From: a virus
IMG/VR virus record: IMGVR_UViG_3300035670_000412
Location: 1-44,588 of that record
Length of the DNA stretch: 44,588 bases
Strand: one strand, 5' to 3'
Both the position numbers and the translations under genes were made by a program. Positions 6,910 through 38,451 of this stretch are shown in pieces. The notes beneath the pieces are model-generated. The model was not told the DNA's origin. It made no database searches and saw only the letters and a program-made list of their open reading frames with translations. The stretch's first letter is position 1, and each line of letters opens with the position of its first letter.

Positions 6910-7223
6910 GCCTCTACCCCCTTGACCGCCGCCGGCGCGAAGACATCGGCCACGGGCCGCTGGCTCACGCCGCAGCCGGCATCGAACCGCAGCCCGAGCC
7001 GGTTGAGTTCGCGCGCCTGGTGCAGCACCTGGAGCGCGGCGATCTGCAGCAATGCAGCGCCGACGCGTGCAGGCAGGGGCGCAGCCCGTGCCCCACGCCA
7101 CAGGCCTGCCTGCTCGGCGCCGACACCGACGACGGCATCGGCATGTTCCGAGGCCTGGTCGTCGCCCTCCTCGTCACCCTCGCCGCCATCGGTGCGGCAC
7201 TGCTGATCGCCGCGCTGGCCTGA
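6906..7223 (+). CDS. Cys-containing tail-anchored protein (105 aa)
   Basis: ATG 6906 overlaps the preceding stop. Residues 45-68 carry four Cys in a compact pattern (CSADACRQGRSPCPTPQAC) and the last 25 residues form a membrane helix (GLVVALLVTLAAIGAALLIA). Similar short Cys-plus-anchor proteins occur in phage recombination operons without known role. The next gene, bet-like, starts 32 bp downstream. Confidence 0.65.
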   Translation: MSLYPLDRRRREDIGHGPLAHAAAGIEPQPEPVEFARLVQHLERGDLQQCSADACRQGRSPCPTPQACLLGADTDDGIGMFRGLVVALLVTLAAIGAALLIAALA

Positions 7224-7255
7224 GCCGGCGCCCTTGCCCACCCCCAGGAGACTGC

Positions 7256-8107
7256 ATGTCGACCGCCCTCGCCACCCTCTCGAACAAGCTCGCCCAGCGC
7301 TTCGGCATGGAGCACGACGCCGAGCTCGTCACCACGCTCAAGCAGACCGCGTTCAAGTCGCGCGAGCCCGTCTCCGACGCGCAGCTCACGGCGCTGATGG
7401 TCATCGCCAACGAGTACGGCCTGAACCCCTTCACGAAGGAGATCTACGCCTACCCGGACCAGCACAAGGGCATCGTGCCGGTGGTCGGCGTCGACGGCTG
7501 GATCCGCATCGTCAACGAACACCCTCAGTTCGACGGCATCGAGTTCGACGCCACGCCCGAGGTCGTCACGGCGAAGATCTACCGCAAGGACCGCAGCCGG
7601 CCCACGGTGGTGACGGAGTACCTCGAGGAGTGCCGCCGCAACACCGACCCGTGGAAGAACATGCCGCGGCGCATGCTGCGCCACAAGGCGCTGATGCAGT
7701 GCGCGCGCGTGGCCTTCGGCTTCGCGCTGTACGACGACGACGAGGCACGCGACTTCGTGCCGGCCACGCTGATCGACGCAGCCACTGGTGAGGTGATCGA
7801 GCGCGCCCGCAGCGCCAGCCCGGCCCCGGCCTCCCGGCCCGAGCTGCCCGCGTACAGCCCGGCGGACTTTGACAAGAACCTGCCCGCCTGGTCGAAGGTC
7901 GTCGCCAGCGGCAAGAAGACCGCCAGCGCACTGCTGGCGATGCTGCAGACCAAGGCGTCGTTCACCGAGGAGCAGAAGGCCCGCATCCTGAGCCTGAAGC
8001 CCGACGCCACCGACGCGACGCCGGCGCCCTCGCCGGCTGCCGCGCCGACCCCGCCCGAGGCCGACGAGTGGGCCGCCGACTACGCCGCCGAGGAGGGAGC
8101 GAAGTGA
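7256..8107 (+). CDS. bet: Single-strand annealing protein, Bet/RecT family
   Basis: A 283-aa protein started at ATG 7256 with AGGAG 6 nt upstream. Residues 40-150 carry the family core (LMVIANEYGLNPFTKEIYAY; VVGVDGWIRIVNEHPQFDG; ALMQCARVAFGFALYDDDEA). The C-terminus is a Pro/Ala-rich linker. It anneals complementary single strands made by the exonuclease encoded next, as lambda Bet does with Exo. The stop overlaps the exonuclease start (GTGA). This pair supports recombination-dependent replication and gene capture. Confidence 0.92.
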   Translation: MSTALATLSNKLAQRFGMEHDAELVTTLKQTAFKSREPVSDAQLTALMVIANEYGLNPFTKEIYAYPDQHKGIVPVVGVDGWIRIVNEHPQFDGIEFDATPEVVTAKIYRKDRSRPTVVTEYLEECRRNTDPWKNMPRRMLRHKALMQCARVAFGFALYDDDEARDFVPATLIDAATGEVIERARSASPAPASRPELPAYSPADFDKNLPAWSKVVASGKKTASALLAMLQTKASFTEEQKARILSLKPDATDATPAPSPAAAPTPPEADEWAADYAAEEGAK

Positions 8108-9756
8108 ACATCGCCGACCGCACCACGCATGACGTGCAGCAGGGCACGGGCGCCTGGTTGTCGCTGCGCGAGGGCTACTCGACGGCCTCGGAAGCGCCGG
8201 CCGCGCTCGGCGTCAGCCGCTACATGACGCGCGGCGAGCTGCTGCGCCGCAAGCACACGGGCGTGGCCGAAGACCCCGATGCAGCGACGCTCGGCCGATA
8301 CGCTGCCGGCCACGCGGCCGAAGCCGCCGCACGCCCCCTGGCCGAAGACATCGTCGGCGGCGAGCTCTTCCCCGTGACCATGACGGCGGTGGTCGACGGC
8401 GTGCCCCTGCTGGCGAGCCTGGACGGCCTGACGCTCGAAGGCGACGTCTGCTGGGAGACGAAGCTCTGGAACGCGGAGCTGGCCGACTGCGTGCGCCGCG
8501 GCGAGCTGCCCGCGCAGTACACGGCGCAGATGGACCAGCAGCTGCTGGTGAGCGGCGCCAGCCGCTGCATCTTTACCTGCACCGACGGCACGCCGGAGCG
8601 ACTGGTGTCGTGCTGGTACGAGGCCGACCCCGCGAAGTTTGCCGCGCTCGTGGCCGGCTGGCGCCAGTTCCACGCCGACCTGGCGGCCTACGAGCTGCCC
8701 GAAGCCGCGCCGGCGGCGCCCGTCGGCAAGGCCCCCGAGACGCTGCCGGCGCTGCTGATCCAGGTCACCGGCGCCGTCACCGCGTCGAACTTGGCCGAGT
8801 TCAAGGCCACCGCGCTGGGCGCGATCCGCGCCGTGAATCGCGAGCTGAAGACCGACCAGGACTTTGCCGACGCCGAGAAGGCCGTGAAGTGGTGCGCCGA
8901 GGTCGAAGCCCGCCTCAAGGCCGCGAAGGAGCACGCGCTGAGCCAGACCGCCGACATCGACGCGCTGTTCCGGGCGATCGACGAGATCAGCGCCGAGGCG
9001 AAGACGGTTCGCCTCGACCTCGACAAGCTGGTGACGCGCCGCAAAACCGAGGTGAAGGAAGAGGCCGTCGCCCGTGCGCGCCGCGCGCTCGACGAACACA
9101 TCGCGGCGCTGAACGCCGAGATTGCCCCGTTCCGCCTGCCAGCCATCGCGGCGGACTTCGCCGGCGCCATCAAGGGCCTGAAGTCGCTGGCGAGCATGCA
9201 GGACAAGCTGGACGCGCTGCTGACGACGACCAAGGTCGCGGCCGAGGTGGAGGCCCGCGCCATCCGCGCCAACCTGGCGACGTTCAAGGCCGAGGCGGCG
9301 AACTTCGAGTTCCTGTTCGCCGACCTGGCGACGTTCGTGCACAAGGCGGCCGACGACTTCAAGGCGCTGCTGACGGCGCGCATCGCCACGCACCAGGCGG
9401 CGGAGGAACGCCGGGCCCGCGAGAAGGCCGAGGCCCAGGCCCGTGAGGCTGCGGCAGCGCCGGCGGCCGCGGTGTCCACGGCCGCTGCACCCGTGGTCCA
9501 GCTTCCCGCCACGGCGTCCGTGCCCTCCATGCCTTCCGCGCCGCGCGCCGGCGAGCCGGCCACGCTCAAGGTGGGCGAGATCAACGCCCGGCTGGCGCCG
9601 CTGAAGCTCGATGCCGCCGGCCTGGCCGAGCTGGGGATCAACCCCGCGCGCACCGAAGGCGCGGCCAAGCTCTACCGCGAAAGCGACTACACCCGCCTGC
9701 TCATCGCATTGAGCCGGCACGTCGACGGGCTCAGGACTCGGCTGCAGGCCGCGTGA
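8104..9756 (+). CDS. YqaJ-type recombination exonuclease with long coiled-coil C-terminus
   Basis: A 550-aa protein, GTG start at 8104 coupled to bet. Residues 1-210 match a lambda-Exo/YqaJ nuclease: GHAAEA near residue 70, then SLDGL, then the metal-binding ExK in CWETKLWN. Residues about 225-450 are a long helical, charged region like the DUF1351 proteins often found beside phage exonucleases, here fused in one chain. The C-terminal 70 residues look like a small separate domain. It resects double-strand ends to load Bet. The integron cassette array starts within about 50 bp of its stop. Confidence 0.88.
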   Translation: MNIADRTTHDVQQGTGAWLSLREGYSTASEAPAALGVSRYMTRGELLRRKHTGVAEDPDAATLGRYAAGHAAEAAARPLAEDIVGGELFPVTMTAVVDGVPLLASLDGLTLEGDVCWETKLWNAELADCVRRGELPAQYTAQMDQQLLVSGASRCIFTCTDGTPERLVSCWYEADPAKFAALVAGWRQFHADLAAYELPEAAPAAPVGKAPETLPALLIQVTGAVTASNLAEFKATALGAIRAVNRELKTDQDFADAEKAVKWCAEVEARLKAAKEHALSQTADIDALFRAIDEISAEAKTVRLDLDKLVTRRKTEVKEEAVARARRALDEHIAALNAEIAPFRLPAIAADFAGAIKGLKSLASMQDKLDALLTTTKVAAEVEARAIRANLATFKAEAANFEFLFADLATFVHKAADDFKALLTARIATHQAAEERRAREKAEAQAREAAAAPAAAVSTAAAPVVQLPATASVPSMPSAPRAGEPATLKVGEINARLAPLKLDAAGLAELGINPARTEGAAKLYRESDYTRLLIALSRHVDGLRTRLQAA

Positions 9757-9808
9757 TCCCGCGCCCCACAACCGATTTTTTGCAGGCGCTAGGCAGTGGT
9801 GCTGGGCG

Positions 9809-9905
9809 CCCTAACGTGCAGGTAAGCGGGGCCCAACGGCGCACCGGACTATGAACACCGACACACTTGATGCCGTTGGGGCTCCGCTTCACCGGCGGGT
9901 TAGCC
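9809..9905 (+). repeat. attC site 1
   Basis: CCCTAAC (9809-9815) pairs with GTTAGCC (9899-9905). The inner arms GGTAAGCGG and CCGCTTCACC pair with one unpaired base. The stem extends through GCCCAACGGC and GCCGTTGGGGC. The loop contains the methyltransferase ATG at 9851. Confidence 0.8.
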
Positions 9906-10678
9906 GGCAACCGGCGGACTTGCCGAAGCCGTACTACGCCGATGACGCGGTGACGCTGTACCACGGCGACGCGCTGGCATTGCTACCGCTACTGCCCAAG
10001 GCTGACGCGGTGGTGACTGACCCGCCCTACGGCGAAACCTCGCTGGATTGGGACGTGTGGCCGGCTGGCTGGCCTGCGGTGGCTGCGCTGGTGGCGCCGC
10101 AGATGTGGTGCTTTGGCAGCATGCGCATGTTTTTGGACAAGCGCGGCGACCTTGCCGACTGGAAGCTGGCGCAGGACATCGTGTGGGAGAAGCAGAACGG
10201 CAGCAACTTCGACGCGGACAAGTTCAAGCGCGTGCATGAGTTTGCGCTTCACTTCTACCGTGGCGACTGGGGCGCACTGCACCGCGAAGCACAGACCCAG
10301 CCAGGCGAAGCCAAGAGCACCCGGCGCGTGCGGCAACGCGAAGACATCAAGCACCGCGGCGAGATTGGCCCCAACGTGTATGAGTACAAGGACACCCGCG
10401 TGATGCGTAGCGTGATCTACGCGCGCAACTGCCACGGCTACGCGGTTAACGAGACACAGAAGCCCGAGGACATCGTGGCCCCGCTACTGCAGTACAGCGT
10501 GCCGCCCGGCGGCCTGGTGATCGACTGCTTTGCAGGCAGTGGCACGACTGGCGCGGTGGCCCGCAAACTGGGGCGCAGGGCGATCTTGATTGAGAAGCGC
10601 GAGTCACAGTGCCGGGCCATCGCTGCGAGGCTGGCACAGGGTGACTTGTTGACGCCTAACGTTCGCATTCAGCGGTGA
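9851..10678 (+). CDS. Cassette-borne DNA methyltransferase (beta class, N6-adenine type)
   Basis: 275 aa from ATG 9851, or 252 aa from an in-frame TTG at 9920 that follows GGCGGA. DPPYG (residues 57-61) comes before FAGSGTTG (about 228-235), i.e. catalytic motif IV before AdoMet-binding motif I, the order of beta-class methyltransferases; DPPY favours adenine-N6. The last 25 residues hold the KRES motif following the AdoMet strand. No restriction partner is adjacent, so it is an orphan enzyme that could protect phage DNA from restriction. The start at 9851 lies in the loop of attC 1 and the stop lies in attC 2. Confidence 0.9.
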   Translation: MNTDTLDAVGAPLHRRVSRQPADLPKPYYADDAVTLYHGDALALLPLLPKADAVVTDPPYGETSLDWDVWPAGWPAVAALVAPQMWCFGSMRMFLDKRGDLADWKLAQDIVWEKQNGSNFDADKFKRVHEFALHFYRGDWGALHREAQTQPGEAKSTRRVRQREDIKHRGEIGPNVYEYKDTRVMRSVIYARNCHGYAVNETQKPEDIVAPLLQYSVPPGGLVIDCFAGSGTTGAVARKLGRRAILIEKRESQCRAIAARLAQGDLLTPNVRIQR

Positions 10679-10723
10679 GCGACGGCGCAGCCGGCGCGAG
10701 TCCGCTGCAATGCGCTGTTGGGC
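10654..10723 (+). repeat. attC site 2
   Basis: GCCTAAC (10654-10660) pairs with GTTGGGC (10717-10723). Arms CGCATTCAGCGG and CCGCTGCAATGCG pair with one extra base. The methyltransferase stop is in the left arm. Confidence 0.9.
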
Positions 10724-10751
10724 GGCCGGTTCACGAAGCAAAGGACAGAAG

Positions 10752-10946
10752 ATGGAGACCGAATTTCCGCGCGATGATCAGAAGCGCGCGTGCATGCGTT
10801 GCCTGTGGTGGAGCCCGACAAACAGTGTTGCCGGCCACTGCAAGCGCATGCCGCCGGTTCGCCCGGACGGCGAAAGCGAAGGCTTCTGGCCGATGACAGG
10901 GCGCGGCGACTGGTGCGGAGAGTATCGGCAAGGCAGCCCGGAATGA
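10752..10946 (+). CDS. Cassette-borne small Cys-rich protein (64 aa)
   Basis: ATG 10752 has AAGGACAGAAG upstream. It contains CMRCLWW, HCKRMPP and GDWCGEY: four Cys and a His spaced like a zinc ribbon. The arrangement, with conserved Trp and a final WCGEY, suggests a small metal-binding fold. It overlaps the next gene (ATGA), so cassette 2 is a two-gene operon, uncommon for integron cassettes. Function unknown. Confidence 0.75.
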   Translation: METEFPRDDQKRACMRCLWWSPTNSVAGHCKRMPPVRPDGESEGFWPMTGRGDWCGEYRQGSPE

Positions 10947-11203
10947 CCGACGTGACGCTGCATTTCAAGGCGCAGCTTGCGAGCCGCGAGTGCGCGGTGT
11001 GCGGCGCCAGGCTGGACCGCAGCGAGCGCGATCACTGGTGGTTGCGCAACACATGGACCAGCGCGGTGCGCGACTATGCCGAGGGCGGAGGATGCTTGCC
11101 GACCGACTGGTTCAGGCCGTGCGGCAAGCTGCCGGCCGACTTAGGCATGACGCCCAACGTTGGAGCTAAGCGGGCGCCGTTGGCGCTCCGCTTGAGCGAC
11201 TAG
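10943..11203 (+). CDS. Cassette-borne Cys-motif protein reading into attC (86 aa)
   Basis: ATG 10943 overlaps the previous stop. A CAVCGARLDRSERDHWW segment resembles a half zinc-finger. The ORF continues through the left arm and loop of attC 3 and stops at TAG immediately before the GTTAGGC core, so its last 17 residues are encoded by the recombination site. Unknown function. Confidence 0.7.
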   Translation: MTDVTLHFKAQLASRECAVCGARLDRSERDHWWLRNTWTSAVRDYAEGGGCLPTDWFRPCGKLPADLGMTPNVGAKRAPLALRLSD

Positions 11204-11209
11204 TTAGGC
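11152..11209 (+). repeat. attC site 3
   Basis: GCCCAAC (11152-11158) pairs with GTTAGGC (11203-11209). Arms GAGCTAAGCGG and CCGCTTGAGC pair with a bulge. At 58 bp it is a compact, textbook site. Confidence 0.92.
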
Positions 11210-11231
11210 AGCATCTGGTGAAGGACTGACC

Positions 11232-11645
11232 ATGCCGATTAAGCCCGAGAACAAAGCCCGATACCCAAAGGACTGGAAGGACGTGCGCCACCGCATCCTG
11301 CAGCGCGCGAACTGGCGATGCGAGCACCCGAACTGCCGCGCCCGCCACGGCGTGACCGGCTACTGGCGCAAAGGTCTGTTTCACCGGCTGCCCGATGTGC
11401 TGTGGGATGCGGGGTACACGGCTGGCGATGTGATGGCATGCGAGAACGGCGAAAAGCTGAAGATCATCAAGATCGTGCTGACCATCGCGCACCTTGACCA
11501 CACGCCCGAGAACTGCGCAGACGACAACCTGCGCGCCTGGTGCCAGCGCCACCACCTGGCGCATGACGCTGCACACCACAAGACCACCGCCTACCGGAGA
11601 CGCAAAGATGCGGCGATGACGGCGGACATGTTTGATGCTGCCTAA
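11232..11645 (+). CDS. Cassette-borne HNH endonuclease
   Basis: A 137-aa protein with GAAGGA 8 nt before ATG 11232. The catalytic ββα region is AHLDHTPENCADDNLRAWCQ followed by RHHLAHD, with the His-Asn-His residues in place. CEHPNCRARHG supplies a zinc-binding pair. HNH proteins nick or cut DNA and some phage members aid packaging. The stop TAA is part of the attC 4 core GCCTAAC. As a cassette gene it might act in defence or inter-phage competition. Confidence 0.85.
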   Translation: MPIKPENKARYPKDWKDVRHRILQRANWRCEHPNCRARHGVTGYWRKGLFHRLPDVLWDAGYTAGDVMACENGEKLKIIKIVLTIAHLDHTPENCADDNLRAWCQRHHLAHDAAHHKTTAYRRRKDAAMTADMFDAA

Positions 11646-11742
11646 CGTTCGAGCTAACCTGGACCCAACGGCATGAACCAACACACCCGAAGCGAGACCC
11701 CGGCGCCTGCCGTTGGGGCTCAGGTTGAGCGAGCAGTTATGC
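11640..11742 (+). repeat. attC site 4
   Basis: GCCTAAC (11640-11646) pairs with GTTATGC (11736-11742). Arms CGAGCTAACCTG and CAGGTTGAGCG pair with bulges, and GACCCAACGGC with GCCGTTGGGGC. The loop contains an ATG at 11673 in frame with the next gene. Confidence 0.9.
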
Positions 11743-12065
11743 CGCTACCGCCGGAGCGCGCGACCTTTGCGGACTGGCTGCGCGCAGCCAAAGGCCGGCT
11801 CGATGCCCGTGGCGACGTGAACTACCACTGGGCGGAAAACATCACGATGGGCGAGCACGACGCCGCGTTGATGGCGTGGAGGTTCCAACAGCGAGAGATT
11901 GACCGCTTGCGAGCCGCGTTGCTGACCTGCGCCAGGCAGGCGGAAGCGCTCAAGGTCGATTGCGGCATGGACCCCGAGAGCGCCCAGGCCGCCCGCAACT
12001 CAAGGTATCAAGCCATTAGCACCACAGCCCACATTGCGCTGGGCACGATCAAGGGGGCCGAGTGA
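11739..12065 (+). CDS. Cassette-borne unknown protein (108 aa)
   Basis: The ATG at 11739 is formed by the attC core GTTATGC itself; an in-frame ATG at 11673 in the attC loop would add 22 residues. The protein is helical (TFADWLRAAKGRLDARGDVN; MAWRFQQREIDRLRAALLTC) and resembles the short ead/ea-type accessory proteins of phages rather than known resistance cassettes. The TGATG junction couples it to the next gene. Confidence 0.75.
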   Translation: MPLPPERATFADWLRAAKGRLDARGDVNYHWAENITMGEHDAALMAWRFQQREIDRLRAALLTCARQAEALKVDCGMDPESAQAARNSRYQAISTTAHIALGTIKGAE

Positions 12066-12421
12066 TGTTCAGCCGACAGCAGATCATGAATGCCATGCAC
12101 GAGTGCGAGGCGCCTGACTACGTTTTTAAGTCCATGCTGGTTGCAATGGACAACATGGAGGCATCGGCACCCGTTGCCGTGCACCTGTTGCGCAACGCAG
12201 TTGCCGCACTGCTGAAGTGCAAGAGCGGCGAATACTGCGATGCCTACCCGGCCGCGCTAAAGCTGGCGCAGCATGCCATGCAGTTGACCGACTACGCGCA
12301 GCAGCAGGTTGCCACCGTCACGGAGTGCGAGGCCTGCTTCACGCCCGATGTGTGCCAACTGCGCGGGACGTGCGATCACTACACCGCTGCGCAGCTTCGT
12401 ATTGCAAAGGCTGTGCCATGA
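12065..12421 (+). CDS. Cassette-borne unknown protein with C-terminal Cys cluster (118 aa)
   Basis: ATG 12065 overlaps the preceding stop. The first 85 residues are helical. The C-terminal part has CEACFTPDVCQLRGTCDHY, four Cys and a His that may bind zinc. Its stop overlaps the next start (ATGA). This cassette therefore carries three coupled genes, an operon moved as one unit. Confidence 0.75.
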   Translation: MFSRQQIMNAMHECEAPDYVFKSMLVAMDNMEASAPVAVHLLRNAVAALLKCKSGEYCDAYPAALKLAQHAMQLTDYAQQQVATVTECEACFTPDVCQLRGTCDHYTAAQLRIAKAVP

Positions 12422-12660
12422 AGCTGACAAAGGCGCAAGACCGCGCGCTCTCGTTCATCCGCCAGGCCGTCGCCGTGCGCATTGACGCCTACGGCTGCCT
12501 TGTGCGCGACGACGGCGAGAAGACCAATGCCAGCGGCGCCACCACGGCCGCGCGACTGGTGGCGCTGGGCCTGCTGACAGGCCGTGGCGGGCTGCTGATG
12601 CTGACGGAGGCAGGGATGCGCAACGCACTGCCAACGTGGCCCAGCAAAGAAGCGGCATAA
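12418..12660 (+). CDS. Cassette-borne small winged-helix-like protein (80 aa)
   Basis: ATG 12418 is coupled to the previous gene. Helices TKAQDRALSFIRQAVAVRI and ATTAARLVALGLLTGRGGLL with a terminal strand (LMLTEAGMRNAL) suggest a winged-helix DNA-binding fold. The stop TAA is inside the attC 5 core GCATAAC. Regulatory role possible, unproven. Confidence 0.7.
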   Translation: MKLTKAQDRALSFIRQAVAVRIDAYGCLVRDDGEKTNASGATTAARLVALGLLTGRGGLLMLTEAGMRNALPTWPSKEAA

Positions 12661-12758
12661 CGTTCGAGGTAACGCGGGCCAAGCGGCCTGCACGGAGGAT
12701 GCAGATGCAAACTGATGACCCGGGCCGTTTGGCCTCGCCGTTGACCGAGCAGTTAGGC
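12655..12758 (+). repeat. attC site 5
   Basis: GCATAAC (12655-12661) pairs with GTTAGGC (12752-12758). Arms CGAGGTAACG and CGTTGACCGAG, then GGGCCAAGCGGCC with GGCCGTTTGGCC. The loop carries GGAGG and ATGs used by the next gene. Confidence 0.88.
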
Positions 12759-13193
12759 CAGGCGCCGGAGCGCGCCGAACTGCGCGCAACGCTGGCCGAG
12801 CTGCTGACCTACGCGGAGGCGTACTCGGGGCGCGCCGATGACTGCGGACGCTTGGCCCGGCTGGTGGTTGAGTTTCTTTCGGCAGGCGGCGTGCCTCAAT
12901 TGCCCACAAACGCCACGGAGCCGATGCAGAAGGCCATGCAACGCGCCGTGATGCTGCGTAAGAGCATGATCGACGTATGGCGCGCGGCGCTGGCTGAACT
13001 GCCAGAGCCCGCAACCGACGCGAGCGCAGAGTTGGAGCGCCTGCGCCAAGCCCTGCGCGACATTGCCGACCCGATTGCAGCGTGGCAGCGCGACTTGCAG
13101 CCGGGCTACACGTTGGACGGCGCGATGTGCGTTCACATGGCGAACGACCCGGAAACGTACAAGCGCATGGCCCGTGAGGCTTTGCGGGCCTAA
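12705..13193 (+). CDS. Cassette-borne unknown protein translated through attC (162 aa)
   Basis: ATG 12705 is favoured: GGAGG at 12694-12698 is 6 nt away, whereas the ATG at 12699 abuts it. The first 18 residues are encoded by the loop and right arm of attC 5. The body is helical (RAELRATLAELLTYAEAYSG; MQKAMQRAVMLRKSMIDVW). The end, GYTLDGAMCVHMANDPETY, looks like phage accessory proteins. The TAA stop lies in attC 6. Confidence 0.72.
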   Translation: MQTDDPGRLASPLTEQLGQAPERAELRATLAELLTYAEAYSGRADDCGRLARLVVEFLSAGGVPQLPTNATEPMQKAMQRAVMLRKSMIDVWRAALAELPEPATDASAELERLRQALRDIADPIAAWQRDLQPGYTLDGAMCVHMANDPETYKRMAREALRA

Positions 13194-13242
13194 CGTTTTG
13201 GTAACCGGCGCCGTTCGGCGTCCGGTTGACCTGTAGTTAGGC
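13188..13242 (+). repeat. attC site 6
   Basis: GCCTAAC (13188-13194) pairs with GTTAGGC (13236-13242). Arms GGTAACCGG and CCGGTTGACC pair with one bulge. At 55 bp it is the shortest intact site of the array. Confidence 0.92.
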
Positions 13243-13262
13243 CCCAACGATACGGAGTACGC

Positions 13263-13838
13263 ATGAGACACCAACGAGGATGGCAAGAAAAGATAGCGGC
13301 ACGCACGGCGCGACGCCTGCAGGCCAATTTGCGACGAGCCGCCGAGGCAGAAGGGAGAACAAGCATGGCAGACAAAGCTACAAACGCAGCCGGGCCAGCG
13401 CACTTGGCGCCGCAGCCTGCGCCCGGTCTGGCTTTCGATGCGCGCGGCGTGCTGTCGCCGCTTGCGCGAGAAAGCGTGGCCGACGCGCTGCTGATCGTGG
13501 AGAGCTACGGCCCGTGGGGCCCTGACGTGAACGACGCGCACCGCCGCCAGATTGTGCTGGCCGACGAAGTTAGGCGCCTTGTGGACAAGTGCAATGGCTA
13601 CATCGCGGACAACGCGCGACTGGCTGAGCAGGTGGAAAACATGCGCGCCGCTTTGCAGTGGTACGCCGATGGCCTGCACTTCGACAAGGCCAGCCCTGAC
13701 GCATGGGACACGGTGAGCGGCGAGCCGCAGAACTGGTGGTGCGACGAGGCGGGCACGGCGACCGTAGAAGACGGCTCGATTGCCGCGATGGTGCTGAGCG
13801 GCGAGTTGACCGGCGCCCAAGTTCAGGCGCTGGACTGA
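13263..13838 (+). CDS. Cassette-borne phage-type unknown protein (191 aa)
   Basis: Two in-frame starts are plausible: ATG 13263 (GGAG 6 nt upstream) and ATG 13365 (AGGGAG upstream). The part after residue 50 is conserved-looking: ESVADALLIVESYGPWG, then a coiled helix (DNARLAEQVENMRAALQWYA) and an acidic, Trp-rich end. It resembles ead-like phage proteins, so the cassette probably carries phage-derived cargo. The stop is 11 bp before the degenerate attC 7. Confidence 0.7.
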   Translation: MRHQRGWQEKIAARTARRLQANLRRAAEAEGRTSMADKATNAAGPAHLAPQPAPGLAFDARGVLSPLARESVADALLIVESYGPWGPDVNDAHRRQIVLADEVRRLVDKCNGYIADNARLAEQVENMRAALQWYADGLHFDKASPDAWDTVSGEPQNWWCDEAGTATVEDGSIAAMVLSGELTGAQVQALD

Positions 13839-13848
13839 TGGCCTTGGG

Positions 13849-13867
13849 GCCTAACTTGTGATTAGGC
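13849..13867 (+). repeat. Degenerate attC site 7 / array end
   Basis: GCCTAAC TTGT GATTAGGC keeps only the outer inverted cores; the inner arms are missing. It marks the right boundary of the array and is probably no longer recombinogenic. Confidence 0.6.
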
Positions 13868-13927
13868 CAACCGCGCCACCCCCTGCCAGTCGGCCTATTG
13901 CAGCCTCTCACCCAGGACAGCGACATC

Positions 13928-14164
13928 ATGGACAGCCTAAAACCCATCGGACTGACTCACCGAGTCACGATCACTGTCACCGGCCGGTATGCCCACGGGC
14001 GAGAGCAAGAGCACGCGACCGTGACGCTGGCGGGTGACGGCTCTCTCGACCACATGCTCGATGCCTACCGGGCGGCGCTCGTGGCCGCTGGCTATTCGCC
14101 CGACACGGCGCGTCGGCTGGAGGTGTGCGATGCGATGATGGTGCGGCGGGGTGAGGACCGCTGA
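13928..14164 (+). CDS. Small unknown phage protein (78 aa)
   Basis: ATG 13928 has AGGA 10 nt upstream. A strand-rich N-terminus (HRVTITVTGRYAHG) is followed by a helix (DHMLDAYRAALVAAGYS). It is the first gene after the cassette array and precedes the DUF4224/integrase pair in the same direction. No family assigned. Confidence 0.65.
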   Translation: MDSLKPIGLTHRVTITVTGRYAHGREQEHATVTLAGDGSLDHMLDAYRAALVAAGYSPDTARRLEVCDAMMVRRGEDR

Positions 14165-14167: not shown

Positions 14168-14383
14168 ATGTTCACCGTCCGCCTGTCAGACGCCGAGCTG
14201 GTCGAGCTCACTGAGTACGAGCAGCCAACGAAGCAGCTGCAAGAGCTGCACAGACAGGGTTTCTACCGAGCGCGGATTGGGCGCACCGGGCGGGTGATCC
14301 TCGAGCGGGCGCACTACGATGCGGTGGCACGCGGCGAGGTGGCGCCCCCTGTCCAGCGCCAGCCGCGGCTCCGCACCGCATGA
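14168..14383 (+). CDS. DUF4224-type protein upstream of integrase
   Basis: A 71-aa protein with the pattern LVELTEYEQPTKQLQELHRQ then GFYRARIGRTGRVIL, characteristic of the DUF4224 family that regularly precedes phage tyrosine integrases. It probably binds DNA and may regulate or assist integration. The stop overlaps the integrase start (ATGA). Confidence 0.85.
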   Translation: MFTVRLSDAELVELTEYEQPTKQLQELHRQGFYRARIGRTGRVILERAHYDAVARGEVAPPVQRQPRLRTA

Positions 14384-15459
14384 AGGATCCTGCCCTCCCC
14401 CCTCGGGTCTTCGAGCACGGCGCCTGGTACAGGATCGCGGTTGCCCGCGGCGACAAGCGCGAGTGGCACAAGCTCTCGCGCATCCGCGACGGCCTGCCGG
14501 CCATGTGGCGAGCCTATGCGGCCTTCACGGTCGATGCACCGACCGACACCTACCTCATGCCGGCGCTCATCGCCGAATGGCAGGATGCCGTGCTGGCGTC
14601 GCGCGCCAAGGCCACCAAGACTGCGGCCAACTACATGCTCGGGCGGGTCTCGGGCGCCTTTGCTGAGTTCCGGCCCGACCAAGTCGAGCCGCCGCACTGC
14701 GTCGAGTTCCTGGCCCAGTGGGCCGACAAGCCGCGCAGCTATAACCAGTACCGCGCGCTGCTGGCCGAACTGATGCGCTACGCGATGGAGACTGGGAAGC
14801 GCCCGGCCGGGACGAACCCGGTGCGTGGCGTGATCCGCACCAAGACCGAGAAGCCGCGCCAGCGCTGCCCGACGACGAGCGAGCTGCGCCGCATCAAGAT
14901 CGGCTGCCTGTACGGCGACGACGGCCTGCACACGCGCTCGGGCCTGACGATGGCCGCGCTGATCGAACTGGCCTACCTCACCGGCCAGGACATCGGCCGC
15001 CTGGTCGTGCTGCGCGACGGCCCCGGCGAGGATCAGAACGAGCCGTTCCTGACGCGCGTTGGCATCAGCTTCCGGCGCTCGAAGACCGGCGGCCGGGTGC
15101 TGATCGAGTGGACGCCGCGGCTGCGGGCGGCGGTGGCGGCGCTGAAGCGCATCAAGGCCGAGCGCATGCTGCGCAAGACGTCCGCGGAGCGCAGGCGCCT
15201 CGCGCACCCCTACCTGATGACGCGGCAGGACGGATCGCCGATGACCTACGAGGCGGCGTCGAACGCCTGGCAGCGGGGGCTCAAGCGCTCGGGCGTGGCG
15301 CACTGCATGTTCCGCGACATCCGCGCCCGCGCCATCACCGACACCGACGCCCACGCCGGCCGGCTGGCCGCGAACGCGATGGGCGCCCACACGACCGAGG
15401 CTCAGACGGCCGAGTACATCCGCCACAAGACGGCCCGGACGATCAAGGCGACCGCCTGA
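14380..15459 (+). CDS. int: Phage tyrosine recombinase (integrase)
   Basis: A 359-aa protein with an N-terminal arm-binding region, a core-binding helical domain (about 60-150) and a catalytic domain. Visible catalytic residues: Lys in RRSKTGG, Arg in RDIRARAITD, His about 337 in GAHTTEAQ, and nucleophile Tyr about 346 in TAEYIR. The box I segment reads TGQDIGR where TGxR is expected, so the first catalytic Arg is displaced or replaced. It integrates the phage at a tRNA-Pro gene using the attP just downstream. It lacks integron-integrase hallmarks, so it is not expected to act on the attC sites. Confidence 0.93.
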   Translation: MKDPALPPRVFEHGAWYRIAVARGDKREWHKLSRIRDGLPAMWRAYAAFTVDAPTDTYLMPALIAEWQDAVLASRAKATKTAANYMLGRVSGAFAEFRPDQVEPPHCVEFLAQWADKPRSYNQYRALLAELMRYAMETGKRPAGTNPVRGVIRTKTEKPRQRCPTTSELRRIKIGCLYGDDGLHTRSGLTMAALIELAYLTGQDIGRLVVLRDGPGEDQNEPFLTRVGISFRRSKTGGRVLIEWTPRLRAAVAALKRIKAERMLRKTSAERRRLAHPYLMTRQDGSPMTYEAASNAWQRGLKRSGVAHCMFRDIRARAITDTDAHAGRLAANAMGAHTTEAQTAEYIRHKTARTIKATA

Positions 15460-31884: not shown

Positions 31885-31943
31885 GGTGCGGCGAATTGCG
31901 CGGAGCATGTCGGAGCTTCAGACCACCCCGGAAGGACATCACC

Positions 31944-32339
31944 ATGGCCAAGAAAGCCAACAGCACCCTCCGCACCGCCTGGGCGCAGTCGTTGATCGAC
32001 ACGCTCGGCGCGAGCCACAAGATCAAGTTCTACAACGGCACGCAGCCGGCAGACACGAGTGCTGCGATCAGCGGCCCGACGCTGCTGGCGACGCTGACGG
32101 CCGACGCCACGCCGGGCAGCGCCTCCGCGGGCGTGCTGACCTTCGACGCTGCGAACTACACGCAGACGAACTCGTCGCACGTCAACGGCACGCCGACCTG
32201 GGTGAGTTTCACCACCTCGGCCGATGTCCGCGTGTACGAGCTGGCGATCCCCGCGGACGGCATGACTTTCACCGGGACGATCCAGAACGGCGTGGACATC
32301 GCGCGTGGTGCGTGGACCTGGACGGCGCCTGACGCGTGA
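31944..32339 (+). CDS. Structural protein, first gene of plus island (131 aa)
   Basis: ATG 31944 has AAGGA 8 nt upstream. It begins MAKKANSTLRTAWAQSLIDT and is beta-rich afterwards (SHKIKFYNGTQPADT; WVSFTTSADVRVYELAI). Such proteins occur among virion/tail genes of several betaproteobacterial phages. It is coupled to the next gene through TGATG. Function inferred only as a virion component. Confidence 0.65.
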   Translation: MAKKANSTLRTAWAQSLIDTLGASHKIKFYNGTQPADTSAAISGPTLLATLTADATPGSASAGVLTFDAANYTQTNSSHVNGTPTWVSFTTSADVRVYELAIPADGMTFTGTIQNGVDIARGAWTWTAPDA

Positions 32340-32728
32340 TGCCAGATCCGGTATTCCCGCCGCTGCCGGAGGCGCCGACCGGCGCCGACGCGCAGCAGTG
32401 GCGTGACTACATCGAGCGCGTGCAGGCCTACAACTACGCTGTCGGCCTGATGGACGCGCGTGTCCGCGCGCTTGTAGCCGAGAAGCACGCTCAGGCTCAA
32501 GCCGACACCGCCGCGGCCATGAACGCGGCAGCGGAGGCCTCGAAAGAGGCGGCTCTGACGATGCTTCAGCCCGTGCCGAGGATGCCGCTGACGCGCGCCG
32601 AACTCGCGTGGGACGCGCTGCGCCACATGCCGCACATCACCGGCATGACCGATCTGCAACAGGTTGACGTTGCGGTGATGCGTGCCGATGCGTTCCTGCG
32701 GCGGTTCCCGCCCTCTCCGACCGCCTGA
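32339..32728 (+). CDS. Chaperone-like protein of the plus island (129 aa)
   Basis: ATG 32339 overlaps the preceding stop. The protein is almost all helix (EKHAQAQADTAAAMNAAAEA then SKEAALTMLQPV), with a Pro-rich start and end. Placed in front of the propeller protein, it may be its assembly factor. No family recognised. Confidence 0.6.
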   Translation: MPDPVFPPLPEAPTGADAQQWRDYIERVQAYNYAVGLMDARVRALVAEKHAQAQADTAAAMNAAAEASKEAALTMLQPVPRMPLTRAELAWDALRHMPHITGMTDLQQVDVAVMRADAFLRRFPPSPTA

Positions 32729-32743
32729 CGAGGCAGCCCGATC

Positions 32744-34210
32744 ATGTGGCTGATCCTCGACAGCGCGACGCGGGCCGCGTGGTCGGCAGCCACGTCGCAG
32801 CAGGGCCAGCTGCAGGCCATCACAACGGCCTTTGGCGGCTCGCCTGTCACCGCGCGCCTGTTCGGCGGCGACGGCACGTTGCGCCGCGTGCTCACGCTGC
32901 CAGTGCTCACCATCGACACCGCGGCGAGCCCGCGGCGCATCGTGCTCGGCGCCCTGGCGGCCGACAGTCCGATCACAGCCGGGTCGCTCGGCAAGTGGGT
33001 GCTGCGCACAGCGGGCGGGGTCGACATCATGGAGGCCGATGCGGGCCTCGCGGGGTCGACCATCGTGCATCCAGGCACGGTCAAGGCGCTCTGCACGCCG
33101 ACGCTGGCTGGTGTTGAGATCGCGTCCGATGCTCAACTGCCGGCAACGGCACTGCCGACGTGGATGTCCGGCCAGGCGATCAACGAGTGGCGCCAGATCA
33201 GCGGCACGTCACTGAGTACGGCGCCGGCCACGGGCGGCGGTAGCAATGTCCCGCAGGGCAAACAGGATGCATGGTGCGGCTGGCACGTTGATCCGCGCAA
33301 CGGCGACATCCTGAGCGTCGGGCAGGGCGGGCACGGCGACTATTACGGGAACGAAGTCAATCGACTCAGGCTGAGCGACAACGTGCCGGCGTGGGTCGAG
33401 CTGGTGCCGCGCTCGGACATCAGCGCGCTGACGCAGGCGTCTGACTACTACACAGACGGCAAGCCCGCATCGACGCACGGATACCACACGGGCGTTACGG
33501 TGGGGGCGCGTGCGCTCCGGTTCCCAGGCGCATCGCGGTCGCAAAACGGCTCGTCGACGCAAACGATTACGGCGTTCAATCTGGACAGCCAAGCATGGGA
33601 GTCGGCTGCGACGTGGCAGGGGCTGGCGTGGCCGGCGTCCGTGACTACGGCCGGCGGCACTTACGCTGCGCACCCGGTAACGGGCGAGGTGTTCGCGTGG
33701 TATGACAATTACGGTGTGCATCTGTGGACCCCCGGTGTGCCAGGGTCGTGGACCACGCTTGTTACCAACCCGCCGGGGTCGTCCGTGTATTACACGGCCG
33801 CCGCTATTGACCCGACGCGCCAGCAAATGTTCTTGTTGGGCGGCAACCTGGGCAGTGTTTGCAGGACGTACAACATACAGACAAACACGATCTCTGAAAT
33901 ATCGTTGACCGGCGTCAATCTGTCATCGTCATACGGTATCGGCCTGGTCTACGTGCCGGCGCTGGACAAGTACGTCGCGTGCGTGCCGACAACGTCGGGC
34001 AGCGGCGTCTACCTCATCACGCCGAACGGCACAACGACATGGGCGTGCGAGGCACTGGCGACGACGGGCGGGGCGGCCATCGCCGACACGCTGAGCTATG
34101 ACGGGTTCAACCCGTTTACAAAATTCTTGTATGTCCCCACGCTTGGCGGCTGCGTCTTCGGCCCGCGTTGGGCGTCTAATGTCTGGTTCCTTCGGTTGCA
34201 CGCAGTCTAA
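32744..34210 (+). CDS. Kelch/beta-propeller adsorption protein candidate (488 aa)
   Basis: An N-terminal 110-residue region is followed by repeated Gly-rich blades (WHVDPRNGDILSVGQGGHGD; HPVTGEVFAWYDNYGVHLW; IDPTRQQMFLLGGNLGSV; VPALDKYVACVPTTSGSGVY), the look of a kelch-type propeller. Virion propellers often bind sugars or surface proteins, so this is a receptor-binding candidate. The second half (33.6-34.2 kb) is AT-richer than its surroundings, with codons such as ATA and AAA, suggesting transfer from another source. Confidence 0.65.
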   Translation: MWLILDSATRAAWSAATSQQGQLQAITTAFGGSPVTARLFGGDGTLRRVLTLPVLTIDTAASPRRIVLGALAADSPITAGSLGKWVLRTAGGVDIMEADAGLAGSTIVHPGTVKALCTPTLAGVEIASDAQLPATALPTWMSGQAINEWRQISGTSLSTAPATGGGSNVPQGKQDAWCGWHVDPRNGDILSVGQGGHGDYYGNEVNRLRLSDNVPAWVELVPRSDISALTQASDYYTDGKPASTHGYHTGVTVGARALRFPGASRSQNGSSTQTITAFNLDSQAWESAATWQGLAWPASVTTAGGTYAAHPVTGEVFAWYDNYGVHLWTPGVPGSWTTLVTNPPGSSVYYTAAAIDPTRQQMFLLGGNLGSVCRTYNIQTNTISEISLTGVNLSSSYGIGLVYVPALDKYVACVPTTSGSGVYLITPNGTTTWACEALATTGGAAIADTLSYDGFNPFTKFLYVPTLGGCVFGPRWASNVWFLRLHAV

Positions 34211-34223
34211 GCAAGAGGTCTAG

Positions 34224-35423
34224 ATGGCAACCCGCACACAGATCGCAGCAGACTCATTCGCACGGGCTGGAACGGCTATCGGGTCTGATTGGGCGCAGCT
34301 AAACACGTTTTGGGGGAATGTCCAGATCACGGCGAGCACGCAAAGGGTCCGAGGAACGACAGCTAGCCCTGACCTGACCAGAGGCCAAGCCGTTCGGTGG
34401 GTCGGCGCGGGCACGTTCACCGATGACCAATACGCGACGCTCGAATTGGTCGACCTGACATTTCAGTCGATCGGGTATTACATCGGCGTCGCGGTGCGGT
34501 GCTCGGCCGATACCGATGGCGCGCGTGACTATTACGCGCTGATCGTTTCAAGCGACGCGGCGGGTCCGAACTACACGACCCGGCTTATCAAGATCGTCAA
34601 TGGATCAGCGACGACGCTGCACTCGGCGTCTGTCGCGTGGGCTTCCGGCGACACCGTGGAGCTGGAGGTCGAAGGCACGACGCTGACCGGGATGAAAAAC
34701 GGCTCTGCCCTTGGCGGATCGTTTACTCAGACTGATACGTCTTTGACGACGGGTAAGCCTGGCATTTTGGGGGCGACCGATACCGACACCAGCGCCACCG
34801 GCAAGAACTGGGTCGGCGGGAATCTGACGGCTGGCGACTCTACCCCCCCCACTCTCACCAGCCCGAGCGGCACGGGCGGTATCGGCGTCTGCTCTGGCAG
34901 CGTGAGCACGGACGAAGGCAACGGCACGCTCTACGCGGTTTCCACAGCCAGCGCGACGCAGCCGAGCGTCGCGCAGGTCAAGGCCGGTCAGGATCACACC
35001 GGCACGGCGGCGCTGCGCGCGGTCTCGCAGGCCGTCAGCGCCACGGGCACGCAGACCATCGCCAGCGGGGCCATCACGGGCGGCGCAGGCACACGCTACT
35101 GGCACTTCGTCCACGCGGACGCCGCGGCCAACGACAGCGCTGTGGTCTCGTCGGCGGGGTTCTCGGTCACGGCCGCCCTTGGCATCACCCTGGACGCCCT
35201 TGTCGACGAGAGCGGCAACCCGCGAGCGAGCTACGTGGTCGACAAGGCCTGGGCTGTACGCATCAGCGACAACACGCTGGTTGCGACCTGGACCAACCAG
35301 ACGACCAACGGCTCGGGCGTGCTCACGCTCTCGGACGCGGCTCTGACCGCCGTTCCGCACGCCGTCGTCACCTACACCACCACGGGCCTCAAAGCCGGCG
35401 CCAAGGTCTACACCCCGGCCTGA
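34224..35423 (+). CDS. Tail-fibre-like structural protein (399 aa)
   Basis: Residues 1-200 look like a concanavalin/LamG-type sandwich (WVGAGTFTDDQYATLELVDL; VELEVEGTTLTGMKNGSALG). A fibronectin-III-like part (PTLTSPSGTGGIGVCSG; RYWHFVHADAAANDSAVVSS) and a C-terminal Ig-like part follow. This is a typical modular receptor-binding or fibre layout. A run of eight C at 34843-34850 lies in the linker between domains. Confidence 0.65.
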   Translation: MATRTQIAADSFARAGTAIGSDWAQLNTFWGNVQITASTQRVRGTTASPDLTRGQAVRWVGAGTFTDDQYATLELVDLTFQSIGYYIGVAVRCSADTDGARDYYALIVSSDAAGPNYTTRLIKIVNGSATTLHSASVAWASGDTVELEVEGTTLTGMKNGSALGGSFTQTDTSLTTGKPGILGATDTDTSATGKNWVGGNLTAGDSTPPTLTSPSGTGGIGVCSGSVSTDEGNGTLYAVSTASATQPSVAQVKAGQDHTGTAALRAVSQAVSATGTQTIASGAITGGAGTRYWHFVHADAAANDSAVVSSAGFSVTAALGITLDALVDESGNPRASYVVDKAWAVRISDNTLVATWTNQTTNGSGVLTLSDAALTAVPHAVVTYTTTGLKAGAKVYTPA

Positions 35424-35427
35424 CGCG

Positions 35428-35832
35428 ATGGCGCACTTCCACGGCTCGGTATCCGGCAGTCACGTCCACGGCGATGGCTCGTGGGCCGTCGCGCCGACCA
35501 TCGGCACGATCACGCCAGCGGCCACGAGCATCTTGTTCGCGCACTCTGGCGGCGGCACGCACTACCGCATCTTCGCGCTCGGCGAGTCGGCCGGCGCGTG
35601 GCTCGCGCTCGGCGCCTCGCCGGTCACGGTCAGCGGCCTGACGGCCAACACCGAGTACACGCTACAGATCAGCGGTGACGGGTCCACCGTGGCCGACGCT
35701 GAGAGTACCGGCACGATCAATCCGGGCTCTGGCGGCGGGCAGGTCAGTTCTGGCGTGCCCACGCTGAGCGCGGCGACCGTCATCAATATCAGCGCGACCT
35801 CGGCCACGCCGCGCGTCACGTTGACCTTCTGA
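35428..35832 (+). CDS. Small fibronectin-III-like structural protein (134 aa)
   Basis: A His-rich start (MAHFHGSVSGSHVHGDGSW) may bind metal. The middle is a fibronectin-III-like sandwich (ASPVTVSGLTANTEYTLQIS) and the end is Thr/Ser-rich. It lies 4 bp after the fibre-like gene and 10 bp before the repeat protein. Probably a virion accessory. Confidence 0.65.
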   Translation: MAHFHGSVSGSHVHGDGSWAVAPTIGTITPAATSILFAHSGGGTHYRIFALGESAGAWLALGASPVTVSGLTANTEYTLQISGDGSTVADAESTGTINPGSGGGQVSSGVPTLSAATVINISATSATPRVTLTF

Positions 35833-35842
35833 GGCCGTCGCC

Positions 35843-38167
35843 ATGCCCGTCGTCATCCGCGCCCCGAGCAGCGACACCTCGGCGTCCGGCACATGGACCG
35901 GATCGGTCGGGTCGCGGTGGGCCGTGGTCGACGACTACCCGGACACCGCAACCGACAACCTCATCCACGGCACGGCGGCCGGGGCGATCCAGTTCGGCTA
36001 TGCGGCGCCGAATGTTCCGGCCGGGTCTTCCATCGTCTCGGTTGTCGTCAGGTACTACGCAAACAAGACCGCCCCGCAGGGCGTTTCGTTTGGCGCACGA
36101 ATCACGGTCAACGGCACCGCCTATGACAGCGCGGCCGACAACGTGGCCAACGGCACGCCGACCCTTTACACGAAGACCTGGACGACAAACCCATCTACCG
36201 GCGCGGCATGGACGCGCGACCAGGTCAACGGCACGGCGGGCAGCGGCAACCTGACGGCGTTCGGCACCTTCGCCAACGACGCCAACCCGACTATTCAGCT
36301 CTGGTCGATCGAGCTGGCGATCGACTACACGGAGCCACCTCCGGTCACGATGTCGACCACGGGCGGCAGCGGCGCGTTCGCGGCGAGCGCGTCTTCGCCG
36401 GCCGTGGCGGCGAGCGCGGTCACTGGAGACTCTGGCTCGTTCGCTGGCGCGGGCAGCGCGCAATCGTCAGCGCAGGCTGATTTGACTGGTGGCGCGGGCG
36501 GCTTCTCGGGTTCAGCGTCGGTCGTGGTGGCGACCAGTTTGTACTACGTGGTCGGCCCCGCCAGTGGCTGGACGGACCCGTCGGCCGCAGAGATCAAGGC
36601 CGGGCAGATCGCAGGGGGCTCGCCAGCCACTGCGGCCGGCAACGATGCGGCGCCGAGCGCGTCGCAGACATTCGACTTCAGCCCGGCCTCGGGTCTATCG
36701 CCCGGCACGGCCTACCGCGTCGCGGTCGTCTGGAGTGACGGCGCCAGCAACAGCAACGTCGCGGTCAGCGCCGAGTGGCAGACATCGCCCCTGGTGTCGG
36801 CGGCGGTCTCTGGCGCTAGCGGCACGCTTTCGGCTGCGTCGAGTCCGCTGGTCACGGCATCGCTCGCGCTCACGGGCGCCTCGGGCACGCTCAGCGGCAC
36901 GGCCAACAGCACGACGACAGTAGTCGCGGCGGTCACTGGATCGTCTGGCGTCTTCGCCGGCAGCGCGCAGACCAATGCGACGGCATCCGCAGCGGTCACG
37001 GGGGCGAGCGGCTCGTTCGCGGCAGCCGCACAGAGCAACGCCACCGCCACGCTCTCGGCCACGGGCAGCAGCGGCACGCTCAGCGCAGCGGCCAACAGCA
37101 CGACGACAGTAGCCGTGGCGATCGCCGGGCAGTCGGGCACGCTCGCGGCCAGCGCGGGCGCATCGTCCAGTGCGACGCTCTCGACAACGGGCAGCACGGG
37201 CACGCTGGCCGCCTCGGCATCGTCGCCGGCCGTCGCCACGCTCGCGGCCACCGGCAGCAGCGCCGCCTTCTCAGGGTCGGCGCAGAGCGTCAGCAGCGTT
37301 GCCCTGGCGGCGTCAAGCAGCAGCGGCACGTTCTCTGGCGGCGCCGGGGCCGGCACGTCGGCGGCGCTCGCTGCGTCGGGCAACAGTGGCGCCTTCGCTG
37401 GCGCGGCATCGTCGCCCGCGGTCGCCACGTTGGCCGCCGTGGGTGGCGCGGGCAGCGTCAGCGCTTCGGCCAGTTCGCCCGCGACGGCGGCGCTGGCGGC
37501 AACCGGCGGCGCCGGGGCTTTCAGCGGCACGGCGCAGACCAACGCGACGGCAACGCTGGCGGCATCCGGCAGCTCGGGCGCGATCTCGGCGTCGGCCAGT
37601 TCCACGGCGGCAGTGGTGCTCGCTGCGGCTGGCAACAGCGGCATCTTCGTCGGTTCGGCGTTCTCGTCGGCCACGGCGGCGGCGGCCATCGGCGGCGGCA
37701 GCGCGGCCTTCAGCGGCGGCGCCGGTGTCGGCACCTCGGCCTCGTTCGGCGCCACGGGCGGCAGCGGGGCGTTCGGCGGCACGGCCAGCAGCACGACGAC
37801 AGCGCAGATGGCGGCGCTCGGCGGCGAAGGCGCGTTCGCAGGTTCGGCCTACCCGCTCACGCGGGCGCAGCTTGCGGCTGCGGGCGGGTCGGGGGCCTTC
37901 GCCGGCAGTGCTTCATCTTCGGCCGGCGCCAGCATGGCGGCCACCGGCGACAGCGGCCAGGCGGCGCTGTCGGCATGGAGCCTGGCCATGGCCAGCTTCG
38001 CAAGCGCCGGCAGCTCAGGGGCTTTCGCCGGCGTTGTCTTCGGCAAGGACACGCGGCGAGAGTTCGTCCGGCTGACCAGCCCCATCGCCACCGCGCGCGC
38101 CTTTGACAGCCCCATCGCCACCGCGCGCGCCCTCGCATCGCTGCTGAACCTCGAGGCGGAAGCATGA
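35843..38167 (+). CDS. Giant Ala/Ser/Gly repeat fibre protein (774 aa)
   Basis: Residues 1-170 form a jelly-roll-like domain (IVSVVVRYYANKTAPQGVSF; IQLWSIELAIDYTEPPP). A fibronectin-III-like module (about 235-315) follows. The remaining 420 residues are about 20 degenerate repeats of 22-24 residues around ATLAATGSSGAFSGSA. These predict a regular beta-solenoid or silk-like filament. The last 45 residues contain a tandem SPIATAR duplication. Third positions are nearly all G/C. It resembles no named fibre family I can recognise. Confidence 0.7.
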   Translation: MPVVIRAPSSDTSASGTWTGSVGSRWAVVDDYPDTATDNLIHGTAAGAIQFGYAAPNVPAGSSIVSVVVRYYANKTAPQGVSFGARITVNGTAYDSAADNVANGTPTLYTKTWTTNPSTGAAWTRDQVNGTAGSGNLTAFGTFANDANPTIQLWSIELAIDYTEPPPVTMSTTGGSGAFAASASSPAVAASAVTGDSGSFAGAGSAQSSAQADLTGGAGGFSGSASVVVATSLYYVVGPASGWTDPSAAEIKAGQIAGGSPATAAGNDAAPSASQTFDFSPASGLSPGTAYRVAVVWSDGASNSNVAVSAEWQTSPLVSAAVSGASGTLSAASSPLVTASLALTGASGTLSGTANSTTTVVAAVTGSSGVFAGSAQTNATASAAVTGASGSFAAAAQSNATATLSATGSSGTLSAAANSTTTVAVAIAGQSGTLAASAGASSSATLSTTGSTGTLAASASSPAVATLAATGSSAAFSGSAQSVSSVALAASSSSGTFSGGAGAGTSAALAASGNSGAFAGAASSPAVATLAAVGGAGSVSASASSPATAALAATGGAGAFSGTAQTNATATLAASGSSGAISASASSTAAVVLAAAGNSGIFVGSAFSSATAAAAIGGGSAAFSGGAGVGTSASFGATGGSGAFGGTASSTTTAQMAALGGEGAFAGSAYPLTRAQLAAAGGSGAFAGSASSSAGASMAATGDSGQAALSAWSLAMASFASAGSSGAFAGVVFGKDTRREFVRLTSPIATARAFDSPIATARALASLLNLEAEA
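38078..38131 (+). repeat. 30-bp tandem duplication at the end of the repeat protein
   Basis: The 24-bp block starting AGCCCCATCGCCACCGCG occurs at 38078-38101 and again at 38108-38131, encoding SPIATARA twice. A recent slippage or a small functional repeat. Confidence 0.85.
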
Positions 38168-38451
38168 CCACCCAGAAGACCTACGTCGGAGACGCCGGAA
38201 CCGCAATCGTCCTGGACTGCGGCCAGGACATCAGCGCGGCTACGGCGCGCAGCATCGAGGCGCGCAAGCCCGACGGCACCACGGCGAGCTGGCCGGCCTA
38301 CGCCAGCGGCACCACGGCGATCCGTTTCGACACGCTGGCCGGCACGCTGGACCAGGCGGGCCGGTGGCGGCTGCAGGCGAAGGTTGCGATGCCTTCGGGC
38401 GAGTGGCGCGGCGAGACGGTGGAACTGGCGGTCTATGCGGAGTTCGGGTGA
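38164..38451 (+). CDS. Small beta-sandwich structural protein (95 aa)
   Basis: ATG 38164 overlaps the previous stop (ATGA). The fold looks like an Ig-like sandwich similar to the N-terminal part of BppU-type baseplate proteins (VGDAGTAIVLDCGQDISAAT; WRLQAKVAMPSGEWRGETVE). It is the last gene of the plus island; its stop TGA abuts the stop of the convergent minus gene. Confidence 0.7.
   Translation: MTTQKTYVGDAGTAIVLDCGQDISAATARSIEARKPDGTTASWPAYASGTTAIRFDTLAGTLDQAGRWRLQAKVAMPSGEWRGETVELAVYAEFG

Follow-up and report, generated by a model that had tools for sequence, protein, structure and literature searches.

We analysed a 44,588-base window (the whole stretch of DNA under study, IMG/VR virus record IMGVR_UViG_3300035670_000412) from a temperate siphophage, in which a row of attC sites and gene cassettes, resembling those that spread antibiotic resistance in bacteria, follows a recE-type exonuclease gene. 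We consider it probable (roughly 0.83) that a phage integron stores its cassettes in this array and that the window is a member lacking intI, the gene of the integron integrase IntI. This reading is carried by true attC sites, by cassette genes inverted relative to those sites, by a phage IntI clade with a conserved gene order, by cassette junctions at the R box, and by cassettes shared between phages.

The attC sites were searched for with a covariance model (R1) trained on 44 attCs of Burkholderiales chromosomal integrons and on zero phage sites. This bacterial-trained model matched all six intact sites that an earlier interpretation of the letters alone (the sequence-only reading) had named, with E values from 5.4e-12 to 2.4e-5, and returned nothing further in the window below E 0.09. 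All six lay on the minus strand, where the best score was 57.4 bits versus 13.8 bits on the plus strand, and each possessed R''/R' boxes (RYYYAAC...GTTRRRY), paired L arms, an extrahelical base and a hairpin. A pattern detector found, at a score of at least 12.5, 27 sites in 3.5 Mb of related loci versus 0 in 3.5 Mb of composition-matched random sequence; it was substituted for a first version with no fixed bulge position, in which chance matches reached 16. An Rfam scan at the gathering threshold gave no match. The sequence-only reading had also counted a degenerate seventh attC at 13849, and this did not hold, since R1 left it unmatched; the element is the terminal R box of the array, GCCTAAC followed by its inverted copy, and occupies the attI place of relatives. 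With six sites in 3.4 kb and no adjoining intI, the array is a cluster of attC sites lacking integron integrase (CALIN; at least two attCs within a few kb and no adjoining intI). The observation of an attC array in the window is thus confirmed, and the evidence supports a genuine array of cassettes in a temperate phage. The array comprises the following elements, in which open reading frames are abbreviated ORFs and the variable terminal structure VTS.

9809..9905, minus strand: attC 1, whose loop contains the methyltransferase gene ATG (R1 33.3 bits, E 4.4e-6; ATG in the VTS, open for 256 codons beyond the site)
9851..10678, plus strand: cassette 1, N6/N4 DNA methyltransferase, beginning within attC 1 (PF01555 E 8e-29; phrog_67 E 1.3e-47)
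10654..10723, minus strand: attC 2 (R1 50.9 bits, E 2e-10)
10710..11203, plus strand: cassette 2, two small ORFs (10710-10946 and 10943-11203) with no family
11152..11209, minus strand: attC 3 (R1 57.4 bits, E 5.4e-12)
11232..11645, plus strand: cassette 3, HNH endonuclease (phrog_1571 E 3e-24; counterpart in phage L160)
11640..11742, minus strand: attC 4, whose loop contains the next gene's ATG (R1 40.2 bits, E 9e-8)
11673..12660, plus strand: cassette 4, three ORFs (11673-12065, 12062-12421 and 12418-12660), function unassigned
12655..12758, minus strand: attC 5, whose loop contains GGAGG and then an ATG at 12705 (R1 30.4 bits, E 2.4e-5)
12699..13193, plus strand: cassette 5 gene, an ORF with no assigned function, beginning within attC 5 (in-frame ATG)
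13188..13242, minus strand: attC 6 (R1 40.3 bits, E 8.7e-8)
13263..13838, plus strand: cassette 6 gene, an ORF with no assigned function
13849..13867, minus strand: array end, a lone R box (GCCTAAC/GTTAGGC), not an attC and probably an attI-like remnant (no R1 match; starts AACTT as in relatives' attI)

In a canonical cassette the gene and its attC share one orientation, and the window departs from this, with its cassette genes on the plus strand and its attCs canonical on the minus strand; a phage cassette on the plus strand therefore consists of an attC and then a gene, ending at the next attC. The polarity had been misread earlier: on the gene strand, the 3' L arm has the extra bulged base, opposite to what canonical cassettes show. 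Across 34 phage loci, 128 of 129 attCs lay on the strand opposite the genes. With phage attCs called by R1, the gene was inverted in 97/114 intervals of phage arrays versus 5/35 intervals of 17 Burkholderiales arrays, whose remaining 30 were canonical (Fisher p = 1.6e-14). In a control, a class 1 integron on a plasmid, the resistance genes followed the canonical attC direction and pointed away from intI. We also noted that the sole site detected in a published phage CALIN (Tetrasphaera phage TJE1, L235, 1016-1075) is canonical to its genes, unlike the present arrays, and that L155 bears a lone attC of opposite orientation (678-778) at the contig end distal to its main array.

The loops of many phage attCs contain a gene start. 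An ATG opening a downstream frame, which had to continue at least 40 codons past the attC (fewer where a contig ends), was present in 22/74 distinct phage attCs versus 0/64 bacterial attCs in the same direction (p = 4e-7), and a Shine-Dalgarno motif accompanied it in 13 of the 22. In the window, such starts occur in attC 1 (the methyltransferase), attC 4 and attC 5. Loop starts occupy two reading frames only, as expected because GTTAG contains a stop in the third.

Relatives of the phage were located through RecE. All five nearest RecE relatives with sufficient sequence (L002, L003, L005, L006 and L007; RecE 56-65% identical) had arrays downstream of recE, and an R1 search of 179 RecE loci yielded 49 attCs, spread over 17 loci; all but one (48) were opposite recE. 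An intI gene occurs in one relative (G011) and in a prophage of G007:C102, a 155-kb Burkholderiales contig; this prophage reads bet, recE, three attCs, intI, xis, int, with an xis 57% identical to that of the window. With the G011 IntI as query, 47 viral contigs were retrieved, and a second query with another IntI of the set gave a nearly identical contig list. Among 34 viral records checked, 33 IMG/VR phage contigs exceeded the TIGR02249 integron-integrase cut-off (388-487 bits), and the R, HxxR, H and Y catalytic positions were invariant in the alignment (A2). The order in the intI-bearing phages is array, conserved attI, intI and phage int; L290, for example, has two attCs, intI, xis and int, with an xis 56% and an int 47% identical to those of the window. 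These relatives thus hold complete integrons, with an IntI over the cut-off, an attI and an attC array. G035, one of them, has the sheath, baseplate, capsid and terminase genes of a P2-like phage, so the integron unit occurs in dissimilar phages.

In about 17 phages attI consists of AACTTAAATTC (or AACTTGAATTC) and then CGACACC or a near variant of it, and the intI match lies 37-148 bases further on. The sequence before AAC is unrelated across phages, and attI forms the border of the invariant part in near-identical phages. The array of the window ends in GCCTAACTTGTGATTAGGCC at the equivalent position, which suggests that this GCCTAACTTGTGATTAGGCC is a remnant of attI.

In a tree of 86 IntIs, rebuilt without the very long branches of a quick first tree, a clade (bootstrap 98, approximate likelihood-ratio test 84) united 27 viral rows with two prophages, that of G007 and a row of bacterial origin, G154:C13. 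At G154:C13, an array, intI and a phage integrase lie in that order at the border of host genes. In 399 Burkholderiales genomes, the best IntI match to that of G011 after the one of G154 (73% identical) was 64% identical; INPHARED held no IntI with more than 58% identity to the phage IntI. As separate observations, an annotated xerD of virus Rctr41k (L330, KX853513, 4680-5678) is 45% identical to the phage IntI and forms a long branch in the tree, and the genome holding the intI prophage has a second IntI (G007:C93, 13817-14809) that lies closer to IntI1.

Near-identical phages carry different cassettes. L006 and L007 share 99.985% identity along 13,046 bases and diverge exactly at GGCCTAACG, the flanks of L270 and L271 match at 99-99.9% around differing cassette sets, and the near-identical pairs L263/L264 and L273/L276 likewise have different cassettes. 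The sequence-only reading had named identical gene content in relatives, with no variation at these boundaries, as evidence against cassette exchange, and such a lack of variation is contradicted by these pairs. All of the approximately 12 junctions inspected fell at RYYYAAC, which in the canonical orientation is the R box and the expected IntI cleavage site. In L006 one cassette start stands behind two different sites, although the copy at the contig end may reflect a mixed assembly. L164, which equals L165 over 3,406 bases, stops at an attC R box (L165 3399-3406), as if cassette variants had broken the assembly.

Cassettes are also shared between less similar phages. The HNH cassette gene of the window has 92% nucleotide identity over 475-483 bp to its counterpart in L160, ending at the next attC, and the RecE proteins of the two are 52% identical. 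Further cassettes are common to recE-type and intI phages (e.g., L002/L281 and L003/L285), and one or both of their ends coincide with an attC position. No cassette sharing was seen between the phage arrays and the 17 sampled bacterial arrays.

In relatives, the complete unit runs along phage early transcription, as recombination genes, cassettes, attI, intI, (xis) and phage integrase. We propose that IntI recombines single-stranded attCs at the R box, and in this way adds, removes and reshuffles cassettes. Since the cassette genes are inverted relative to attC, they face intI and could join the transcription of the phage early operon, by which they would be read instead of from the cassette promoter Pc. 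Many long attCs have a Shine-Dalgarno motif and start codon inside the hairpin loop, so translation would begin in the recombination site and read out through the R box. In the window, IntI may come in trans from the host, from a prophage or from a co-infecting phage; if not, the array would be frozen.

Several points weigh against this reading. We infer the recombination, transcription and translation steps from sequence. There is no intI on the records of the window or of its nearest relatives G001-G005, most of the latter being fragments, and the phage records are mostly metagenomic contigs. The viral IntIs L283, L286, L288, L291 and L297 group with bacterial IntIs, outside the clade. Gene strands in the arrays were called by a GC-bias heuristic, and 17/114 intervals lay on the other strand. 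Recognisable Shine-Dalgarno motifs were limited to the 13 loop starts given above.

One rival, in line with the sequence-only reading, is that the IntI of a host chromosomal integron moves the cassettes, with the phage shuttling them between bacterial integrons. The finding that 97/250 sampled Burkholderiales genomes have an IntI over the cut-off is consistent with this, as is the ability of IntI1 to recombine phage attCs in an assay (PMC9892861); yet many relatives encode an IntI of their own, in a separate clade, zero cassettes are common to the phage and the 17 bacterial arrays, and a bacterial Pc would not serve genes in the inverted orientation. We regard this explanation as doubtful. The claim of accessory-gene exchange in the sequence-only reading stands from the comparison of relatives, but the integrase need not be solely the host's, as many relatives encode one just downstream of the array. 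A relic CALIN, that is, a captured piece of a chromosomal integron whose cassettes are now fixed phage genes between fossil attCs, would account for the missing intI and the degenerate terminal site at 13849, and such phage CALINs have been published (PMC9892861). For the lineage this is contradicted by relatives holding the same locus with other cassettes and by near-identical phages differing in theirs; moreover, in all six sites the R and L arms still pair and the bulge is retained, and a captured bacterial segment would retain the canonical gene orientation, whereas the present genes are inverted. Such a relic is therefore unlikely.

Another route would be plain homologous exchange between phages, or one mediated by RecE/Bet, in which attC hairpins serve as short homologies only. 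In its favour, RecE and Bet genes adjoin the array in the window group and short identity surrounds AAC at the junctions. That identity varies by site, however, and all inspected junctions, including the conserved attI edge, fall at RYYYAAC; several of the swapping phages belong to the intI-bearing group, where the swaps adjoin intI. We judge this route rather improbable. Misassembly of metagenomic contigs could in principle mimic cassette variation, the four comparison pairs all being such contigs and several contigs ending within arrays, but the pairs are independent, come from different samples and show the same junction, attCs are short and differ in sequence, and arrays were also seen inside the 155-kb bacterial contig and terminally in one of 74 kb. 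An artefact is thus highly improbable. The phage integron remains the reading that we prefer, and the window is its intI-less member.

The window has an integrase, an excisionase, and capsid, portal, terminase and tail genes, as in a temperate tailed phage. A replication protein, Bet, RecE, xis and int occupy its left side, and tape measure, major capsid, protease, portal and large terminase its right side. Phage recombination and integration genes had been predicted to flank the array, and they were identified as Bet, a RecE-type exonuclease, xis and int.

7052..8107, plus strand: Bet-like single-stranded DNA annealing protein, upstream operon gene (phrog_252 E 5.9e-74)
8068..9756, plus strand: RecE-like exonuclease, left flank of the array (phrog_7655 E 2.2e-173)
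13898..14164, plus strand: small ORF between array end and xis, in the position of intI in relatives
14168..14383, plus strand: excisionase, xis (phrog_1266 E 6.3e-6)
14380..15459, plus strand: phage tyrosine integrase, not IntI (phrog_1 E 4e-22; no TIGR02249 match)

A TIGR02249 search of the window record (G000) found no IntI, and the window is accordingly not a complete integron, which has intI beside the array. No relatives of the window's own integrase were found in IMG/VR, and INPHARED held no near DNA matches. Repeated short palindromes within the replication gene (551-701), with weak attC-model matches at 551-593 and 659-701, may be origin iterons. A plus-strand gene block at 31896-38451 (e.g., 32744-34210 and 35843-38167) has no PHROG match and lies amid the minus-strand structural cluster.

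Most of 113 cassette proteins had no family. The named cargo included four N6/N4 methyltransferases, two Dam, PAPS-reductase-like proteins, HNH endonucleases, Mom (directly before intI in G011, E 1.9e-41) and an Acb2/Tad1 sponge (in L155, also G003, in the cassette after the attC at 11844, E 8.6e-17). Judging from these families, the cargo may partly defeat bacterial immunity. PAPS-reductase-like sequences (phrog_424) were seen in four cassette proteins (alignment A4). A Lar restriction-alleviation protein gave one weak census match that a direct search of the records did not recover, and it is not claimed.

We lean, by a small degree, towards a phage-specific integron class whose integrase clade, attI and cassette pool are its own and whose inverted genes start in attC; it would serve as an exchangeable counter-defence store traded among unlike phages and separated from bacterial integrons by gene polarity. 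Integrons are commonly viewed as bacterial devices that phages occasionally acquire. A phage lineage keeping its own integron would explain fast change of counter-defence genes in temperate phages, and would offer a test bed for cassette shuffling beyond antibiotic resistance. Inverted cassettes with starts in attC would represent a recombination system rebuilt to suit the phage operon, from which one could predict which cassettes are expressible in which integron.

Cassette arrays in phages are not new: in 10,705 phage genomes, Qi et al. 2023 (PMC9892861) described 17 CALINs along with a small number of captured integrons, and they demonstrated recombination of phage attCs by IntI1. In the literature outside subscription papers and preprints, we found no report of the phage IntI clade, of inverted cassette arrays or of gene starts inside attC. 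Sedentary chromosomal and class 1 integrons share with the phage system an IntI with the integron-specific region, an attI, the attC structure and attCs pointing away from intI; unlike theirs, the phage cassette genes face intI and are not positioned for Pc. In the reverse integron of Treponema denticola (PMC4909258), intI and the cassette genes likewise run in one direction, but there, by that paper's definition, the integrase gene is turned, while in the phage system intI and attC are as usual and the cassette genes are turned. ORF-11 of attI1 and the short ORFs in attC (reviewed in PMC8876359) similarly place translation signals that aid cassette expression in recombination sites; in contrast to these, the phage cassette gene itself begins in the loop of its own attC and reads through the R box. 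The phage genomes of Qi et al. resemble ours in their attCs, cassettes and methyltransferase cargo, but their complete integrons are bacterial captures (Vibrio, class 1 in P1, and Shewanella), whereas here the IntIs form a phage clade apart, attI is the system's own, the cassettes are inverted and the unit keeps a conserved place beside the phage int. Relative to the published phage CALINs, what is new here is a lineage-wide system.

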